From: Desulfobacca acetoxidans DSM 11109
Lineage (GTDB): Bacteria; Desulfobacterota; Desulfobaccia; Desulfobaccales; Desulfobaccaceae
Reading direction: 5' to 3'
Length of the DNA: 64,000 bases
Assembly (NCBI RefSeq): GCF_000195295.1
Contig: NC_015388.1
Location: 744,001 to 808,000, forward strand
The translations under genes were made by a program, and so were the position numbers. The notes beneath the pieces are model-generated. The model searched no databases and was not told where the DNA came from. It worked only from the letters and a program-made list of their open reading frames with translations. This document shows positions 7,801 to 20,640 of this stretch, in pieces; the first letter of the stretch is position 1, and each line of letters opens with the position of its first letter.

Positions 7801-7921
7801 CGCAATACTTCAGCTATCTGAGAGAATAGATCAAGGCATGGTGGGCGGTGACCACCCTACAGCGCTACAGCACCGGCAGGCCCACCCGTAGGGGCGAATC
7901 TTGTATTCGCCCCAAACAACT
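7801..7921 (+). repeat. Dispersed repeat family B, copy 2 (intact)
   Basis: This is the best copy of a roughly 120-bp element. It begins CGCAATACTTCAGCTATCTG, passes through AGATCAAGGCATGGTGGGCG and CACCGGCAGGCCCACCCGTA, and ends in a strong hairpin GGGGCGAAT-cttgt-ATTCGCCCC followed by AAACAACT. Inverted copies lie at 17021-17134 and 23226-23347, and a fragment lies near 44714-44752. Confidence 0.75.
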
Positions 7922-13038: not shown

Positions 13039-14346
13039 TTAGCTGTTCTCCTTCGAAGCTGAAAGAGCAGAGTTCGTTCCCAGTTTGGCAAAATAATCCC
13101 AGAAATCAGGGAAGGATTTGGCTACACAGTCCGGGTTGGCGATCATCACGCCAGGGGTTTTAAGCCCGGCCAGGGCAAAGCTCATGGCGATGCGGTGGTC
13201 GTTGTAGGTCTCGATAACCACCCCGCGCGGTTTGCCTCCCTGAATAATGAGGCCGTCTTTGGTCTGGTTAACCGTGATGCCCATCTTTGCCAGTTCCGTG
13301 GCCACGGCCTGGAGGCGGTCGGATTCTTTATGCCTGAGGTGCGGGACGCCCGTGATGACGGTTTCGCCCTGAGCGTAGGCGGCCAACACCGCCAAGGTCG
13401 GGACAAGGTCAGGCATATGGGCCATGTTAATCCGAATGGCCTGAAGTTGTCTGCCCCTGAGCACCACGCCGCTTCCGGTCGGCTCCACCTGGCAGCCCAT
13501 CTGCTGCAGAACCTCAAGGAAGCCGATATCTCCCTGGCAGGATTGCGGGTTCAAGTTGGTCAGAGTAATCCGCCCGCCGGTAAGGGCGGCGGCGCCCAAA
13601 AAATACGAGGCGCTGGAGGCGTCCCCCTCCACCTCGTAGTCTCGAGCCTGATACCGCTGGCCGGCCGGGACGCAAAAATTCTGGTAGCCCCGACGGTAGT
13701 AAGCGATGCCGAAGGCCTCCATGACGCTAAGGGTAATATCGACGTACGGCCGCGACACCAGTTCCCCCACTACTTCAATCTCTACGTCCCTGGCAGCAAA
13801 AGGCGAGATCAGCAGGAGGGCGGAGAGGAACTGGCTGCTGATACCCCCGGACACTCGGGATTCACCGCCAGCCAACCCTCGGGCCTGAATTATGACCGGA
13901 GGGCAGCCGTTGTGGTTCTCACAGTGGGCTACAACTCCGAGAAGGGTCAGGGCGTCAAGCAGGTCCTGAATAGGGCGCTGGCAGAGACGGGGCGAGCCGG
14001 TGAGGACATACCGGCCATTCCCTAATGCCGCCACGGCCGTCAGGAATCGCATTGAGGTGCCGGAATCGCCTAAATATATCGGCTCAGTCGGAACCTTTAG
14101 CCTGCCGCCGGCGCCCTCTAGCAGACACTCCTTTTCCTGCCACGTTATTCGGACCCCCAATTGTTCCAATGCCCGAGCGGTCATGAGGGTGTCATCGGCG
14201 CGCAAGAGATTCCTCAGGGAGCTGCTTCCTCTGGCTAGTCCGGCGGCGATGAGAGCCCGGTGACTGAAACTTTTGGAGCCGGGAAGGGTGATAACCGCTT
14301 CCATTGCCTTTACAGGTTGAATTTCCTTGTAAATCAAGCACGACAC
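13039..14346 (-). CDS. aroA: 3-phosphoshikimate 1-carboxyvinyltransferase (EPSP synthase)
   Basis: The product transfers enolpyruvyl from PEP to shikimate-3-phosphate, the sixth step of the shikimate pathway. Signatures are LPGSKSFSHRALIAAGLARG near the N-terminus, LGDSGTSMRFL (the phosphate/PEP site), SRPYVDITL, HLRHKESDRL and ETYNDHRIAMSFAL near the C-terminus. At 435 residues it is of normal length and complete. It is the last full gene of the minus-strand aromatic operon, 40 bases after aroE, and is followed immediately by a 39-codon ORF. Shikimate kinase and chorismate synthase genes are not in this window. Confidence 0.95.
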   Translation of the reverse strand: MSCLIYKEIQPVKAMEAVITLPGSKSFSHRALIAAGLARGSSSLRNLLRADDTLMTARALEQLGVRITWQEKECLLEGAGGRLKVPTEPIYLGDSGTSMRFLTAVAALGNGRYVLTGSPRLCQRPIQDLLDALTLLGVVAHCENHNGCPPVIIQARGLAGGESRVSGGISSQFLSALLLISPFAARDVEIEVVGELVSRPYVDITLSVMEAFGIAYYRRGYQNFCVPAGQRYQARDYEVEGDASSASYFLGAAALTGGRITLTNLNPQSCQGDIGFLEVLQQMGCQVEPTGSGVVLRGRQLQAIRINMAHMPDLVPTLAVLAAYAQGETVITGVPHLRHKESDRLQAVATELAKMGITVNQTKDGLIIQGGKPRGVVIETYNDHRIAMSFALAGLKTPGVMIANPDCVAKSFPDFWDYFAKLGTNSALSASKENS

Positions 14347-14386: not shown

Positions 14387-15214
14387 TCAGGACTCAGCTC
14401 GCTCTTTTCCCAGCGCCTCTAAAGCCGCCCGGCGCATGGTCTCCACCGGCGACGGTTGGCCAGTGAAGAGCTCAAATTGCCGAGCACCCTGATGTATCAA
14501 CATCTGCAGGCCGTCAATGGTGCGAGCCCCTCGTGCCGCCGCTTCTCGCAGCAGACGCGTCTGCAGGGGCTGGTAGACAATATCCATGACCACCTGGAAC
14601 CGGTCTAAACACCTGGCCGGAAGCGGCGTCGCCTCTATATGGGGCGCCATGCCCACCGGACTGGCGTTGATTAGCACCGTGGCGGTGCTTTGGTCGATTT
14701 CCTCCAAAGGCAGACAGGCGACCCCAAACTCCTGGGCCAGGTTTCGGGCCCGATCTGGGTTCAGGTCGGCGACGGTTACCAGTCCTGCAGCCCGGCGAAC
14801 AGCATAGACAATGGCCCGGCCAGCGCCGCCGGCGCCCAGAACCATGATCTGTTGCCCGGATAATGCAATCTGTTCCTGCAAGGGCGTCAGCGCTCCCTGC
14901 CAGTCGGTGTTGCAACCCCACAACCATCCCTGGCGGTTCACGACGGTATTCACGGCGCCGATAGTTTGAGCTTCCTCGTCCACCTCGTCCAGAAGGGGGA
15001 TGATCTCTTCTTTAAATGGGATAGTGACGCTGACGCCGCCGATGTTTAATCCGCGTAATCCCTGCACCGCTGCTACCAAATCCTGAACGGCAAAGGGAAC
15101 ATAGACGGCGTTGAGGCCAAGGGCGGCAAAAGCGGCGTTGTGCATCGCCGGACTGAGGGAATGGGCTACGGGGCGGCCCAGGATGCCGAAAATAATGGTT
15201 GCACCGGTAATCAT
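14387..15214 (-). CDS. aroE: Shikimate dehydrogenase
   Basis: The product reduces 3-dehydroshikimate to shikimate with NADPH. The substrate domain shows GRPVAHSLSPAMHNAAF, and IPFKEEIIPLLD contains the catalytic lysine. The Rossmann domain has VLGAGGAGRAIVYAV. The C-terminal GLQMLIHQGARQFELFTG is characteristic. The start overlaps the aroD stop by four bases (ATGA), which indicates translational coupling. The length (275 residues) is normal. Confidence 0.95.
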   Translation of the reverse strand: MITGATIIFGILGRPVAHSLSPAMHNAAFAALGLNAVYVPFAVQDLVAAVQGLRGLNIGGVSVTIPFKEEIIPLLDEVDEEAQTIGAVNTVVNRQGWLWGCNTDWQGALTPLQEQIALSGQQIMVLGAGGAGRAIVYAVRRAAGLVTVADLNPDRARNLAQEFGVACLPLEEIDQSTATVLINASPVGMAPHIEATPLPARCLDRFQVVMDIVYQPLQTRLLREAAARGARTIDGLQMLIHQGARQFELFTGQPSPVETMRRAALEALGKERAES

Positions 15215-15888
15215 GTCAACATCTCCCAGATGGAGGTCATTTCCTGGACGGTGAGTTGACCCGGCGCCGATTCTTTCCCCGCCTCCAGGACGGCGAAGGT
15301 CAGATAACTGCCCAACAGCGGCGCGATGACGCGGGAGTATTTCCCGGCCGACCCCATGCAGAAGGCGATAATGTCCTGGCCCTGCTGCTGCGCTGCCGGG
15401 ATGAGACCCAATAGGGCGAGGCAGTCTGAGGGGTGATGGGCATAGGTGACCAGCTTGATAATATCGGCGCCGCAGTCGATCATGGCCGTCATAATCTCGT
15501 GCAGCCGGGGGGGAGTCGAGGGACCTTTAAAGTCATGCCAGGAGAGGATTAGCTTGACCGCGCCGCGGTGGGCCAACAGGTCATTTCGCCAGAAGGGATC
15601 GGCGTTGAACTCCACATCTACATAATCCGCCCCCAAATCTATGGCCTGTTCCAGCAAACGCCGACGCGCTGACTCCGGACCGGAAAACCGCCCTCCCTCG
15701 TTGGGCAGGCGGTTGGTAGCGATGACGGGGCCACGCGGAGCGTGGAGTAGATGCTGCAAATCAGGTTGAATGAGATAATCCAGCCGCAGTTCTGCCAGGA
15801 AGCCCTGGGCATGTATCCGGGCCAGGCACTGGCAGGCGGCGTCGCAGTCGGTCTCTACCACCGGGATGCAGATTCTGATGGAGCTCAA
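15211..15888 (-). CDS. aroD: Type I 3-dehydroquinate dehydratase
   Basis: The product dehydrates 3-dehydroquinate to 3-dehydroshikimate through a Schiff base. The TIM-barrel pattern includes LAELRLDYL, GPVIATNRLPNEGGRF, DYVDVEF, SWHDFKGPS and IIKLVTYAHHPSD, in which the Lys of IKLV is the expected Schiff-base residue. AFCMGSAGKYSR matches the phosphate-binding-like loop of type I enzymes. It is overlapped by four bases at both ends by pheA and aroE, so the four genes form one translationally coupled block. At 225 residues it is typical of the stand-alone type I enzyme. Confidence 0.92.
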   Translation of the reverse strand: MSSIRICIPVVETDCDAACQCLARIHAQGFLAELRLDYLIQPDLQHLLHAPRGPVIATNRLPNEGGRFSGPESARRRLLEQAIDLGADYVDVEFNADPFWRNDLLAHRGAVKLILSWHDFKGPSTPPRLHEIMTAMIDCGADIIKLVTYAHHPSDCLALLGLIPAAQQQGQDIIAFCMGSAGKYSRVIAPLLGSYLTFAVLEAGKESAPGQLTVQEMTSIWEMLT

Positions 15889-16970
15889 CTGACTTTCTCG
15901 ATGGCCTCAGCCTTGGGAAACGATCCCAAGATCTTGAAAAAAGCGCTCATCTCTTCCATTTCGTGCAGGCATTCCTGAAGAGCGGACTCCTGTAGATGAC
16001 CGTCCAGGTCGACAAAAAAGAGATACCGCCAGGCAACGGTCTTCATCGGCCGCGAGACGATGCGAGTCATATTGATGCCCCGCTCCGCCAGCGGCCGCAG
16101 CATGTTATACAATGCCCCAGGGGTATCGGCTACCGCAAAAATGATTGATGTCTTATCCGCCCCGGTAGCCCCGGGGGCATAGGGACCGATGATAAAAAAA
16201 TGGGTGGCGTTTTCCCGGTGATCTTCAATACGTGATTCCACTACCCGCAACTCGTATAGGGAGGCCGCAAAACCACTGGCGATGGCCGCCGAATTGGGGT
16301 TGTGGGCCGCCTTCTGGGCCGCCAGACCGGTGGAACTGACTTCCAACACCGGTATCTGGGGCAGGTGTCCTTGCAGCCATTTCCGACACTGGCCATGAGC
16401 GTGGGGGTGAGTATAGATAATTTCAATATCGTTTATCTGGCCGGAACGGGATATCAGGTCGTGGGAGATCTCCAGATAGATTTCGCCGCAGATCTGGAGC
16501 TTGGTTTCAACGAACTGGTCCAGGGTCTCGTTTACTACCCCCTCAGTGGAATTCTCAATGGGAATGACGCCAAGATGATGGTTGCTCTTCTCCACCGCCA
16601 TGAAGACTTCCGAGATGGTGGGCAGGGGTTTAAAAAAAGTGGAGCGGCCGAATTTTTTGATGGCCGCCAGATGGGTGAAGGTGGCCTCCGGACCCAGGAA
16701 GGCTACCGACAATGGCCGCTGTACCTGGCGCGCCGCCGAGATGATCTCTCGGAAGATATTGCGCAACCCCTCCTCGGTAAGCGGTCCGGTGTTGAACCGC
16801 TTGAGACGGTCAAGGACCTCCTGCTCCCGCTTGGGATCAAGTGTGGCCAGATCTTCCCGATTCTTGATTTCCCCGATGGTTTGGGCCAGTTGTAACCGCT
16901 GGTTGATGAGGGTCAAGAGCTGTTCATCGGTGATGTCAATCTGACGCCGAACGCTTTTTTTATCTGTCAT
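15885..16970 (-). CDS. pheA: Bifunctional chorismate mutase / prephenate dehydratase
   Basis: This P-protein converts chorismate to prephenate and then to phenylpyruvate, which commits flux to phenylalanine. An AroQ-type chorismate mutase domain covers about residues 1-90 (RRQIDITDEQLLTLINQRLQ). The prephenate dehydratase domain begins VAFLGPEATFTHLAA. The ACT regulatory domain near the C-terminus has GALYNMLRPLAERGINMTRI, followed by VSRP where many enzymes have ESRP; this site binds Phe for feedback control. About 220 bases separate it from the upstream DHQ synthase II gene, and a family B repeat lies in that gap. Confidence 0.94.
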   Translation of the reverse strand: MTDKKSVRRQIDITDEQLLTLINQRLQLAQTIGEIKNREDLATLDPKREQEVLDRLKRFNTGPLTEEGLRNIFREIISAARQVQRPLSVAFLGPEATFTHLAAIKKFGRSTFFKPLPTISEVFMAVEKSNHHLGVIPIENSTEGVVNETLDQFVETKLQICGEIYLEISHDLISRSGQINDIEIIYTHPHAHGQCRKWLQGHLPQIPVLEVSSTGLAAQKAAHNPNSAAIASGFAASLYELRVVESRIEDHRENATHFFIIGPYAPGATGADKTSIIFAVADTPGALYNMLRPLAERGINMTRIVSRPMKTVAWRYLFFVDLDGHLQESALQECLHEMEEMSAFFKILGSFPKAEAIEKVS

Positions 16971-17020: not shown

Positions 17021-17134
17021 AGTTGTTTGGGGCGAACACCGGATTCGCCCCTATCGGATGGACCTGTCGGTGCTGTGGGGTGGATACGGTCCGCCATTCC
17101 TTGATTTATTCTCTCAGATAGCCGAAGTATTACG
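17021..17134 (-). repeat. Dispersed repeat family B, copy 3 (inverted)
   Basis: This inverted copy lies between DHQ synthase II and pheA within the aromatic operon. It has AGTTGTTTGGGGCGAA, the hairpin GGGGCGAA-N-TTCGCCCC, then GACCTGTCGGTGCTGT and TTCTCTCAGATAGCCGAAG. It interrupts an otherwise tightly packed operon, so it must be transcribed if the operon is a single unit. A short GGAAACC-like heptamer track follows at about 17159-17178. Confidence 0.7.
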
Positions 17135-17191: not shown

Positions 17192-18187
17192 TTACTTTTC
17201 CAGAATAGTCTCCGTAACCTTGTAGCCGAAATGGCGTCCGGCTTCTTCCAGGGCCACCAATACTTGATCGCCGGGGGATAGCTGCACCACCGAGACGGCC
17301 TCCCCATCGGGCCGGGTGAGTCGGATGGTTTCGGCATTCTGGACAATGGTGCTGCATTCCCGGCCCTCGTGGGTGGCCGTAATCAACATCAAGGGCCGCT
17401 TTTCGATCTTTACCCGACCGACGGTGGCGGGCAGGGTGCGGCCGCTGTAATCCACTACCAGGACTTCATCTCCCGCCTTAAGTTCGCTCAGATATCGGGT
17501 CTTTCCACCTGGAACCCGGATATAGGCGTGCACCGGCCCGGCGTTGACCCGGAAGGGCCGGGCGGCGACATACGGATTCTCGAGGGATTCGGCGTGCACG
17601 AGAAAGAGGGCGGCGGAAGAATTGCCTATCAGCATACCCTGGCCCCGACCCATCTGGGTGCAGGTATCCACGCAGACCCGGTCACCCATGCCCAGGAGGT
17701 GCACCGAGGCTACGGTGGCAGGTGTCAGTTCCACCGGCGGTGAGATTTCTTTGACCAGTCGGAGTAACTGCTTGACCTCGCCTAAATCTGCGGCAGTGAT
17801 GACCAGACCGTCGACCCCGCGCTCCAGAATCCCCAGAAAGGTGCGGGCTTCCTCCACCGTGGCGGCCTCAACAAAAAGATTGGCAGGGCATTGGGCCACT
17901 AAATTTTCGAGTGGGATGATGGTCCAATCCGCGCAATGCACCACCACCGGATGGGTCTTGGCCTTGGCCGCGATATCGGCCTCATCATCGGCCCTGCTGA
18001 GCGTCACCTCGAAAAGGTCCTGTCCCGGCGCCAGGTCTCCATCCGGGGCGATGACGGGAATCTTTCCCAGGGTTTTTACTTCCGCGGCATAGCCGGGGGG
18101 CGTCCAGACTGCGTCGGCACCCCCTTCCAGGGCCGTAGTCACCCGCTTCTTGTCCCAGGGGTCTACCTTAACCCATACCTGTTTCAT
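17192..18187 (-). CDS. aroB': 3-dehydroquinate synthase II (archaeal-type)
   Basis: The product forms 3-dehydroquinate from 2-amino-3,7-dideoxy-D-threo-hept-6-ulosonate by oxidative deamination and cyclisation. It is the archaeal alternative to AroB. The start is ATG 18187 (MKQVWVKVDPW), three bases after the ADH synthase stop. Family motifs are EGGADAVWTPPG, GMGDRVCVDTCTQMGRGQGM and RPFRVNAGPVHAYIRVPGGK. At about 331 residues it is of normal length. Together with the preceding gene it replaces DAHP synthase and AroB. Confidence 0.92.
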   Translation of the reverse strand: MKQVWVKVDPWDKKRVTTALEGGADAVWTPPGYAAEVKTLGKIPVIAPDGDLAPGQDLFEVTLSRADDEADIAAKAKTHPVVVHCADWTIIPLENLVAQCPANLFVEAATVEEARTFLGILERGVDGLVITAADLGEVKQLLRLVKEISPPVELTPATVASVHLLGMGDRVCVDTCTQMGRGQGMLIGNSSAALFLVHAESLENPYVAARPFRVNAGPVHAYIRVPGGKTRYLSELKAGDEVLVVDYSGRTLPATVGRVKIEKRPLMLITATHEGRECSTIVQNAETIRLTRPDGEAVSVVQLSPGDQVLVALEEAGRHFGYKVTETILEK

Positions 18188-18188
18188 C

Positions 18189-18998
18189 TCAGCGCTCCAG
18201 ATCTGGGGTTTGCAGGAAGGCCAGGGCCTCGTCCACTGTGCTGTTTTCGTGTACCAGCAGACTGATAGCGCCCACCATCCGCGTCGGATTACGATGCTGG
18301 AAGACATTACGGCCAATGGAGACCCCGGAGCCGCCGGCCTCGATGGAACCCTTCACCATTTCGAGAATTTCACGGTCGGAATTCATCTTGGGACCGCCGG
18401 CGATAACCACGGGCACCGGACTGCCGGCCACCACTTCCCGGAAGCTTTCCACTGCGCCGGTATAGGATACTTTGACAATGTCGGCGCCCAATTCCGCCCC
18501 TAAGCGCGCCGCATGCTTGATAACTCGGGGTTCGTATTCGTCTTTGATTTTTTCCCCGCGCGGGTAAACCATGGCCAGCAGCGGCATGCCCCAATCCCTG
18601 GCCTCTCGGGAAACCTGTCCGAAGTCGGCCAGCATCTCCCGTTCAGTACCGTCGCCGATGTTCACATGTATGGAAACCGCATCGGCCCCTAATTTGATAG
18701 CCTCCTCAACGCTGCAAACGAGGGTCTTGGCGTTCGGAAAGGGAGAGAGACTGGTGGAGCCTGAGAGATGGATGATTAGGCCGACGTCGCGACCGCGGCG
18801 ACGGTGGCCGGTGGACACCAAGCCTTTGTGCATAACGATGGCATTGGCCCCCCCCATGGCCACGCTATTCACCGTGGTCTTCATATCGATCAAACCTTCG
18901 ATGGGGCCGACCGTGACGCCGTGGTCCATAGGGACGATTACGGTGCGTCCGGTCTCACGATTCAGGATGCGTTCCAGGCGGATCATTTTGCCGATCAT
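18189..18998 (-). CDS. 2-amino-3,7-dideoxy-D-threo-hept-6-ulosonate (ADH) synthase
   Basis: This is a class I aldolase-like enzyme that starts the alternative aromatic pathway by condensing aspartate semialdehyde with a ketose-phosphate-derived unit. The start ATG 18998 is preceded by GGAGG at good spacing. Motifs are [50 protein letters not shown] (the likely Schiff-base lysine region) and VVIAGGPK, as in FbaB/ADHS-type enzymes. It is the first enzyme gene of the operon and is directly controlled by the upstream attenuator. A plain FbaB aldolase is the main alternative, but the adjacent DHQ synthase II argues strongly for ADH synthase. Confidence 0.9.
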
Positions 18999-19066: not shown

Positions 19067-19101
19067 AAAAAAAGCCGTGGCCGCTTCACCTGCGCCACAG
19101 C
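19067..19101 (-). terminator. Attenuator terminator hairpin of the aromatic operon
   Basis: Read on the minus strand, an 8-bp stem GCTGTGGC / GCCACGGC (one G-U pair) with a 12-base loop is followed by seven T residues and is flanked by AAAA that can extend the stem. It lies between the leader peptide and the first structural gene, about 70 bases before the ADH synthase start, which is the position of an attenuator and not of a gene-end terminator. Confidence 0.88.
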
Positions 19102-19151
19102 TTTTACTATTTATTTTAGGTAGTTACTTGTTGCAGAAGGAGGGCGCAGGT
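19088..19151 (-). promoter_or_regulatory. Antiterminator pairing of the aromatic attenuator
   Basis: ACCTGCGCC, which directly follows the leader peptide stop (19151-19143 on the minus strand), is perfectly complementary to GGCGCAGGT (19096-19088). The second segment includes bases of the left arm of the terminator, so the two structures exclude each other. A ribosome stalled on the aromatic codons would leave the first segment free and allow antitermination. A ribosome reaching the stop codon would cover it and allow termination. Confidence 0.85.
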
Positions 19152-19220
19152 TCAGGGCCAGAGATAATAAAAGTAAAAATAAAAAGTGCTGCTCTGCTGG
19201 CTTTCCGACCGAACCTGCAT
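19152..19220 (-). CDS. Aromatic leader peptide (attenuation)
   Basis: This is a 22-codon frame from ATG 19220 to TGA 19152. It starts MQVRSESQQSS and then reads TFYFYFYYLWP, giving three Phe, four Tyr and one Trp codon within nine codons. GAGGGG lies about 11 bases upstream. This is the arrangement of classical ribosome-mediated attenuation leaders such as pheL or trpL, and its stop codon abuts the antiterminator arm. The peptide itself probably has no function; its translation rate senses charged tRNA-Phe, tRNA-Tyr and possibly tRNA-Trp. A second overlapping frame from an ATG ten bases upstream is Leu-rich and less convincing. Confidence 0.88.
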   Translation of the reverse strand: MQVRSESQQSSTFYFYFYYLWP

Positions 19221-19250
19221 GGATTCCCATTCCCCTCAATTTATTGAAAT

Positions 19251-19281
19251 ATAATAAAACAGATTTATCCGGGGCTGTCAA
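19251..19281 (-). promoter_or_regulatory. Putative sigma-70 promoter of the aromatic operon
   Basis: On the minus strand a perfect TTGACA (19281-19276) is followed by an AT-rich stretch with TATTAT at 19256-19251 (19-base spacer; TTTATT at 17 bases is an alternative). It lies about 30-60 bases upstream of the leader peptide, which fits a transcript that begins just before it. Confidence 0.55.
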
Positions 19282-20094: not shown

Positions 20095-20532
20095 TTAGAG
20101 CAGTTTGACTAGGGCGGCGACGATGCCGATGCCGGCCACCAACATGCCGCCAAGGCGTAGGGTGAGGTCGTGTCGGAGGCGAAGTTCGAGTTCTTTCATA
20201 TCGCGCTTGAGTTCGATCCTGAGTTCCTCGATGTCGCGTTTGGTGCTGGCTTTCAATTCTTCGATGTCGCGTTTGGTAGCAGCATGGAGCTCTTCGATGT
20301 CATGTTTGGTGGCGGCTCGTAACTCTTCGATGTCCAGTTTGATGCTGGCTTTCAATTCTTCGATGTCGCGTTTGGTAGCAGCATGGAGTTCTTCGATGTC
20401 GCGTTTAGTGGCTACCTGGTCGTTGATCAGCGAAGCGATGGCCGTGGTCATGGTCTCCGCCTGTTCCACGGTGAAATGGGCGGCTTTGAGCCTATTGGCA
20501 AACTCTAAAGTATCGAAGGCGATGGCTTTCAT
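20095..20532 (-). CDS. DUF1640-like coiled-coil membrane protein with hendecad repeats
   Basis: This is a 145-residue protein starting at ATG 20532 (MKAIAFDTLEFANRLKAAHF). Residues 1-40 match the N-terminus of DUF1640/CCDC90-like proteins (FDTLxFAxxLxxAGFxxxQAEAxxxA). Residues 41-117 are seven nearly identical 11-residue units of the form ATKRDIEELKA, predicted to form a long right-handed coiled coil. The C-terminus is a single membrane helix (LGGMLVAGIGIVAALVKLL). Homologues often occur next to toxin-like or phage genes, but none is visible here. The function is unknown. Confidence 0.75.
   Translation of the reverse strand: MKAIAFDTLEFANRLKAAHFTVEQAETMTTAIASLINDQVATKRDIEELHAATKRDIEELKASIKLDIEELRAATKHDIEELHAATKRDIEELKASTKRDIEELRIELKRDMKELELRLRHDLTLRLGGMLVAGIGIVAALVKLL
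20182..20412 (-). repeat. Seven in-frame 33-bp tandem repeats inside the DUF1640-like gene
   Basis: Consecutive 33-bp units encode ATKRDIEELHA, ATKRDIEELKA, SIKLDIEELRA, ATKHDIEELHA, ATKRDIEELKA, STKRDIEELRI and ELKRDMKELEL. Units 1-2 and 4-5 are nearly identical at the DNA level, suggesting recent duplication and possible copy-number variation between strains. Confidence 0.85.
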
Positions 20533-20577
20533 AATATATATTATGATCATCTCTTGAAAAGATGTCAAATTTTTCTT

Positions 20578-20640
20578 GGTTATTGCCATTATCTAGCGGC
20601 CACCTGCAAACCATGAAAATCATCTGCCGGTGGCATGAAC
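20578..20640 (+). repeat. Dispersed repeat family C, partial copy
   Basis: It carries GTTATTGCCATTATCTAGCG, GCCACCTGCAAACCATGAAA and CATCTGCCGGTGGC, the left two-thirds of the family C element seen complete at 51893-51956 and (inverted) at 46612-46692. The AGGCT-tcc-AGCCT hairpin and T-run of the full element are missing. Confidence 0.6.

Follow-up and report, generated by a model that had tools for sequence, protein, structure and literature searches.

The region ahead of the ADH synthase gene of Desulfobacca acetoxidans DSM 11109 carries a short ORF rich in aromatic codons followed by a hairpin with a T run, raising the questions of whether the downstream operon is controlled by a translating ribosome and, if so, which amino acids are read. 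The locus was analysed within a window of 64,000 nucleotides (NC_015388.1, positions 744,001 to 808,000), the whole stretch of DNA to which all coordinates below refer unless otherwise indicated. The source genome is complete (3.28 Mb), and its nearest named relatives by ADH synthase are Desulfobacca MAGs with 90–91% identity. Sequence comparison and RNA folding make it very probable that transcription of the ADH synthase-to-aroA operon is controlled here by a ribosome-mediated attenuator.

The operon, its leader and the predicted switch

Six aromatic genes lie consecutively on the minus strand. The first encodes ADH synthase (2-amino-3,7-dideoxy-D-threo-hept-6-ulosonate synthase; 18189–18998; TIGR01949, 385 bits against a cut-off of 299), followed by 3-dehydroquinate (DHQ) synthase II (17192–18211, start approximate; NF002627, 477 bits; PF01959), the chorismate mutase/prephenate dehydratase PheA (15885–16970; NF008865, with a CM domain), the type I 3-dehydroquinate dehydratase AroD (15211–15888; TIGR01093), the shikimate dehydrogenase AroE (14387–15214; TIGR00507) and the EPSP synthase AroA (13039–14346; TIGR01356). 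The order ADH synthase–DHQ synthase II–PheA was kept across Desulfobaccales and is also widespread in Desulfobacterales; AroE and AroA or AroD were mostly encoded close by. An earlier note, made from the letters of this DNA alone, had called the operon archaeal-type, a description that suits ADH synthase and DHQ synthase II, whereas pheA, aroD, aroE and aroA are bacterial-type. A REP-like palindrome, GGGGCGAA..TTCGCCCC, occurs twice in the window (17029–17051 and 7891–7913; none expected by chance); one copy sits in the DHQ synthase II–pheA gap, and the palindrome was also seen near locus L355. Positions 20095–20589 (minus strand) encode a protein of 164 aa that has ATKRDIEEL repeated in tandem and a hydrophobic segment at its C terminus, and is weakly CCDC90-like (PF07798).

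The TTGACA box, leader ORF, complementary segment, terminator and seven T residues described in the earlier note were all found on the minus strand where it had placed them. We infer a promoter from the –35 box TTGACA (19276–19281), which is conserved in relatives, and a –10-like TATTAT (19256–19251), so that transcription would be expected to start near 19244. The spacer of this candidate promoter, 19 nt, is long, and a consensus scan with 16–18 nt spacers listed no promoter at the leader. The ORF (19152–19220), which has orthologous aromatic leaders in relatives, encodes the 22-codon peptide MQVRSESQQSSTFYFYFYYLWP, with three Phe, four Tyr and one Trp codon at positions 13–21. Ribosome-position folding assigned F13 Y14 F15 Y16 F17 Y18 Y19 (19164–19184) as the sensing codons and predicted that Trp21 (19158–19160) lies past the switch point. 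The GAGGGG at 19232–19237 is the likely Shine-Dalgarno sequence of the ORF and also forms the outer part of segment 1; GAGG or GTCGAGG was found at the matching place in relatives.

The alternative pairings were computed by folding and duplex comparison. The inner part of segment 1 (19209–19218) pairs with 19155–19146, bringing GCAGGTTC, near or after the start codon, together with GAACCTGC at the ORF end, and in the no-ribosome fold the GAGGG of the probable Shine-Dalgarno sequence also pairs with CCCTC. Segment 2 (19143–19155) can take either segment 1 or segment 3 as its partner; its ACCTGCGCC (19151–19143) abuts the leader UGA and is fully complementary to GGCGCAGGT in segment 3 (19088–19096), 46 nt downstream (duplex, –18.7 kcal/mol). 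Segment 3 overlaps the left arm of the terminator hairpin, formed by segments 3 and 4 (19070–19105; –19.8 kcal/mol; arms 19105–19092 with 19084–19070), and the seven-T run at 19067–19073 provides the U-tract. The hairpin is conserved, with 99.7% of cells paired across 27 sequences. The genome holds a single copy of the leader DNA. Two of these elements, the 1:2 pairing without a ribosome and the use of GAGGGG as leader Shine-Dalgarno sequence as well, are additional to the earlier note.

The window RNA was then folded with all sequence up to the ribosome 3′ edge removed. When the A site was placed at codons 13–19, each position gave the antiterminator and a terminator probability of 0.02 or lower; this probability was intermediate with the ribosome at Leu20, and 0.94 with the ribosome at Trp21, Pro22 or the stop codon. 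Without a ribosome, segments 1 and 2 paired and the terminator probability was again 0.94.

From the computed ORF, its conservation, the pairings and the switch codon we infer the following course for the transcript, the stalling and the response in vivo. RNA polymerase would start near 19244, and a ribosome would translate the 22-codon peptide. Scarcity of charged tRNA-Phe or tRNA-Tyr would stall the ribosome at codons 13–19 and leave segment 2 free to pair with the emerging segment 3, and this pairing would block the left arm of the terminator and allow transcription to continue into the operon from ADH synthase to aroA. With an ample supply of both Phe and Tyr, the ribosome would reach the stop codon and cover segment 2, and segments 3 and 4 would form the terminator. 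If no ribosome is loaded, segments 1 and 2 would pair, the leader Shine-Dalgarno sequence would be buried and the terminator would form.

Amino acids predicted to be read, and a second leader in the same genome

The earlier note suggested that this one leader could sense Phe, Tyr and Trp together. This version of the attenuator is unlikely here, even though a Trp codon closes the run, PWP or LWP directly before the stop codon is conserved in the genus, and 38 of 61 representatives from across the phylum carry at least one Trp codon inside the run. When the 3′ edge of the ribosome was shifted from 8 to 16 nt beyond the A site, codons 13–18 stayed on the antiterminator side for all footprints and Tyr19 for 8–14 nt; Trp21 was on the antiterminator side at 8 nt, half-way at 9 nt and past the switch, favouring the terminator, at 10 to 16 nt. 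As codons 13–19 are on the antiterminator side and Trp21 mostly is not, the codons designed to be read are those for Phe and Tyr, and the window leader is predicted to read these two and not Trp, which would be sensed only with a 3′ footprint of 9 nt or less. Joint sensing of Phe, Tyr and Trp may occur elsewhere, in lineages whose leaders carry Trp codons inside the run.

Another argument against joint sensing at the window leader is a second, Trp-rich attenuator-like leader in the same genome, where genes for the DAHP as well as the ADH entry route are present. A canonical DAHP synthase gene (NF006421, TIGR01361) adjoins aroB (TIGR01357), and upstream of the pair lies the leader ORF MNMSAILHFWYWWFPRGTPAP, with an HFWYWWF run (L328:1065–1248; genome C1:1076553–1076736). 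This ORF is followed by a hairpin of –22.0 kcal/mol and then TTTTTATTT, and a segment GGGACCCC is complementary to GGGGTCCC in the hairpin arm. The fold switches within the leader's own Trp codons, between Trp12 and Trp13. Folding without a ribosome predicted read-through, and the default state of this leader may therefore differ from that of the window leader. SFWGWWF was found at the matching place in two congeners (L332 and L333), and no leader of the HFWYWWF/SFWGWWF type was found ahead of DAHP synthase in more distant members of the order.

Each route to dehydroquinate thus seems to have a sensor of its own, for Phe and Tyr on the ADH route and mainly for Trp on the DAHP route, an arrangement that argues against joint sensing at the window leader. 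Separate attenuators on two chemically different dehydroquinate routes appear to coexist within one genome, and the Phe/Tyr leader and the mainly-Trp leader would be a transcriptional equivalent of the DAHP synthase isozymes of E. coli, each of which has its own feedback regulation.

Conservation across Desulfobacterota

Every genome of the order that carries an ADH synthase orthologue (26/26; proteins 81–100% identical) has an aromatic-run leader ORF at a similar place. Sampling across the phylum found aromatic leaders also in most Desulfobacterales and in many other families of Desulfobacterota, with MQHQNLIPTSGFYFWYWFSHARGRGRGAV and MQRISSNHTSSYAAGIFSWYFFAYFTGACGRELC as examples outside the order. 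No such leader precedes paralogues of about 35% identity. A run score of at least 8 was reached by 86 of 133 distinct upstream regions, compared with 2 of the 133 reverse complements and, among shuffles, 2.1%, and a U-tailed hairpin followed 85 of these 86 leaders. The Phe/Tyr run stays while other residues of the leader peptide vary between species. The comparison of orthologous leaders had been set beforehand as a test of the attenuator proposal, and the aromatic run and the complementary arms were kept rather than absent.

Segments 2 and 3 are ACCTGCGCC and GGCGCAGGT in Desulfobacca, TGCGCC..CTTTTAAAAG and CTTTTAAAAG..GGCGCA in the other family of the order, and GGTCTGCC and GGGCAGACC in Desulfobacterales; in every one of these groups, segment 2 suits the segment 3 that belongs to it. 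Within the order, pair counts agreed with all three helices and showed little covariation. As the helices are too conserved there for covariation to be decisive, partners were swapped between species instead. The 2:3 duplex energies of the 61 representatives summed to –1724 kcal/mol, compared with –1266 ± 32 kcal/mol for swapped partners, and none of 20,000 permutations reached the total of the own pairs, in a test where relatedness lowers the independence of the samples and the automatic search took the second hairpin in some loci.

Full-length equilibrium folding gave a complete switch in 18 of 61 representatives and in 1 of 244 controls, in which the stall effect was lost after shuffling of the segment from the run to the hairpin. 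At the other 43 loci the terminator was favoured at equilibrium, indicating that the decision must fall during transcription, as in known attenuators. A co-transcriptional arm measure of 0.69, against 0.47 for the control, separated the two partially. From the comparison of upstream regions it is beyond doubt that the aromatic run is more than chance, and attenuation of the ADH synthase operon by a translating ribosome, as proposed in the earlier note, is strongly supported by the conservation of leader, complementary arms and terminator at orthologous loci.

A rival reading is a translational mechanism, in which the leader would govern whether ribosomes can reach their binding site on ADH synthase. 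Segment 4 has a further hairpin partner downstream, and archaeal homologues have hairpins ending at the Shine-Dalgarno sequence, but the conserved switching hairpin of the window leader ends in a T run 70 nt ahead of the start codon and its arm excludes the Shine-Dalgarno sequence, making translational control improbable to a high degree at this locus. An ordinary terminator or transcribed spacer accompanied by a chance aromatic ORF can practically be discarded: five-codon TWY runs are no commoner in this genome than the reversed-pattern control (48 overlapping matches against 52), so the run alone is unremarkable by composition and the evidence lies in its conservation and structure, but a chance ORF is contradicted by the orthologous leaders, as run, position, terminator and complementarity are conserved in dozens of genomes from several families.

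An ADH synthase gene with an aromatic leader and a hairpin was also seen on contigs labelled Falkowbacteria and Myxococcota (L073 and L078), which reflect either gene transfer or misassigned contigs.

Known attenuators and archaeal upstream ORFs

The E. coli trp leader is a four-segment attenuator (mechanism: PMC1183508). The window leader shares with it an ORF of cognate codons, the pairings 1:2, 2:3 and 3:4, and predicted termination when untranslated or fully translated. It differs in reading Phe and Tyr, in a segment 1 that includes its own Shine-Dalgarno sequence and in controlling the ADH route to dehydroquinate. The enterobacterial pheA leader is a Phe-rich leader before the prephenate dehydratase gene; the window leader is likewise rich in Phe codons with such a gene downstream, but its Tyr codons outnumber those for Phe, and ADH synthase is the first gene and pheA the third. 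In the his leader, a six-segment attenuator, the terminator is the third hairpin (5:6) and is released by a relay of 2:3 and then 4:5 pairing, whereas at the window leader it is hairpin 3:4 that carries the T run. Some relatives (L132–L138, L069 and L070) are his-like, with a first hairpin that lacks a T run and a second that carries one, cases read by eye since automatic sorting by terminator number, one or two, proved unreliable where hairpins swallowed T runs. The right arm of their first hairpin, CCACGGCT, can pair with the left arm of the second, AGCCGTGG, and by analogy the second hairpin could be unlocked by such 4:5 pairing. In Acholeplasma, the uORFC-13-1 motif ahead of aroF also combines a uORF, a terminator and attenuation logic (PMC8632094). 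It resembles the window leader in placing attenuation at the entry step of aromatic synthesis and differs in its organism group and in its target, a DAHP synthase gene rather than ADH synthase.

An Rfam covariance scan of the window found nothing relevant at E values up to 10, with Phe, Trp and His leaders, T-box and riboswitches included, and a scan of 17 relatives gave none at the gathering score. The window locus has a short leader ORF with a start, a ribosome site and clustered codons for end-product amino acids, an intrinsic terminator ahead of the first gene, a downstream operon that makes the sensed amino acids and, by folding alone, a mutually exclusive antiterminator on stalling at the sensing codons. 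As every feature of a trp-type attenuator that can be tested on sequence was found and Rfam gave no match, the leader is assigned to a new family of this type. No aromatic attenuator is mentioned by Rodionov 2004 on delta-proteobacteria, and no description of an ADH synthase leader was returned by a literature search that may have missed earlier comparative attenuator surveys. While the attenuation mechanism is known, the ADH synthase leader family across Desulfobacterota appears undescribed; the new elements are the pathway under control, a codon set that combines Phe and Tyr, how widely the leader is conserved, and its coexistence with a Trp leader on the other route. In Desulfobacterota, a large family of leaders with no entry in Rfam 15 would thereby stand over the ADH route, the alternative way into aromatic amino acid synthesis, and the codons and segments named for the window leader make it experimentally testable.

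The ADH synthases of Desulfobacterota branch among archaeal ones in the tree, and short ORFs with a C-terminal aromatic run, such as GFYFGFSFGYWFSF and FFGFYYQFYYYWY, were found upstream of ADH synthase at 30/30 loci in Archaeoglobaceae (L226–L255) and at 47/48 in Methanomicrobiales (L211–L225, L256–L279 and L288–L300). The same phylum-level search found no such ORF at 27 other loci save for two or three weak or unplaced matches. At a run threshold of 10, 18 of 30 Archaeoglobaceae loci were detected, compared with 1.7% of shuffles, and many of the ORFs in this family begin about 25–30 nt downstream of a TATA-like box. A hairpin in Methanomicrobiales spans the gap from the leader stop codon to the ADH synthase Shine-Dalgarno sequence and is stabler than shuffles (mean z of –1.5 over 40 loci); the pairing probability of the Shine-Dalgarno sequence was not above control (0.68 compared with 0.67), and the arm-swap test is partly circular there. 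On the ADH synthase tree, the label "leader" changes at least three times on well-supported branches, and repeated origin or loss is therefore likely.

On this comparison of upstream sequences, chances are about even that aromatic leader peptides control ADH synthase in both domains and that the archaeal ones sense amino acids, probably at translation because the Methanomicrobiales hairpin bridges the leader stop codon and the Shine-Dalgarno sequence. If so, the terminator-using bacterial attenuator would be the counterpart of archaeal leader-peptide control, and Archaea too would have leader peptides that sense amino acids. A limited literature search found no description of an archaeal amino-acid leader; that uORFs act in archaea is stated in general terms in a 2023 methods paper (PMC10219788).

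Methanofollis carries two tandem ADH synthase genes that are about 56% identical (L211 and L214; L212 and L215), with a leader directly upstream of the first gene only. A Ser AGC codon recurs within the aromatic run, as TTTAGCTAT, in Desulfobaccales (L009–L027), Methanofollis and Archaeoglobaceae.
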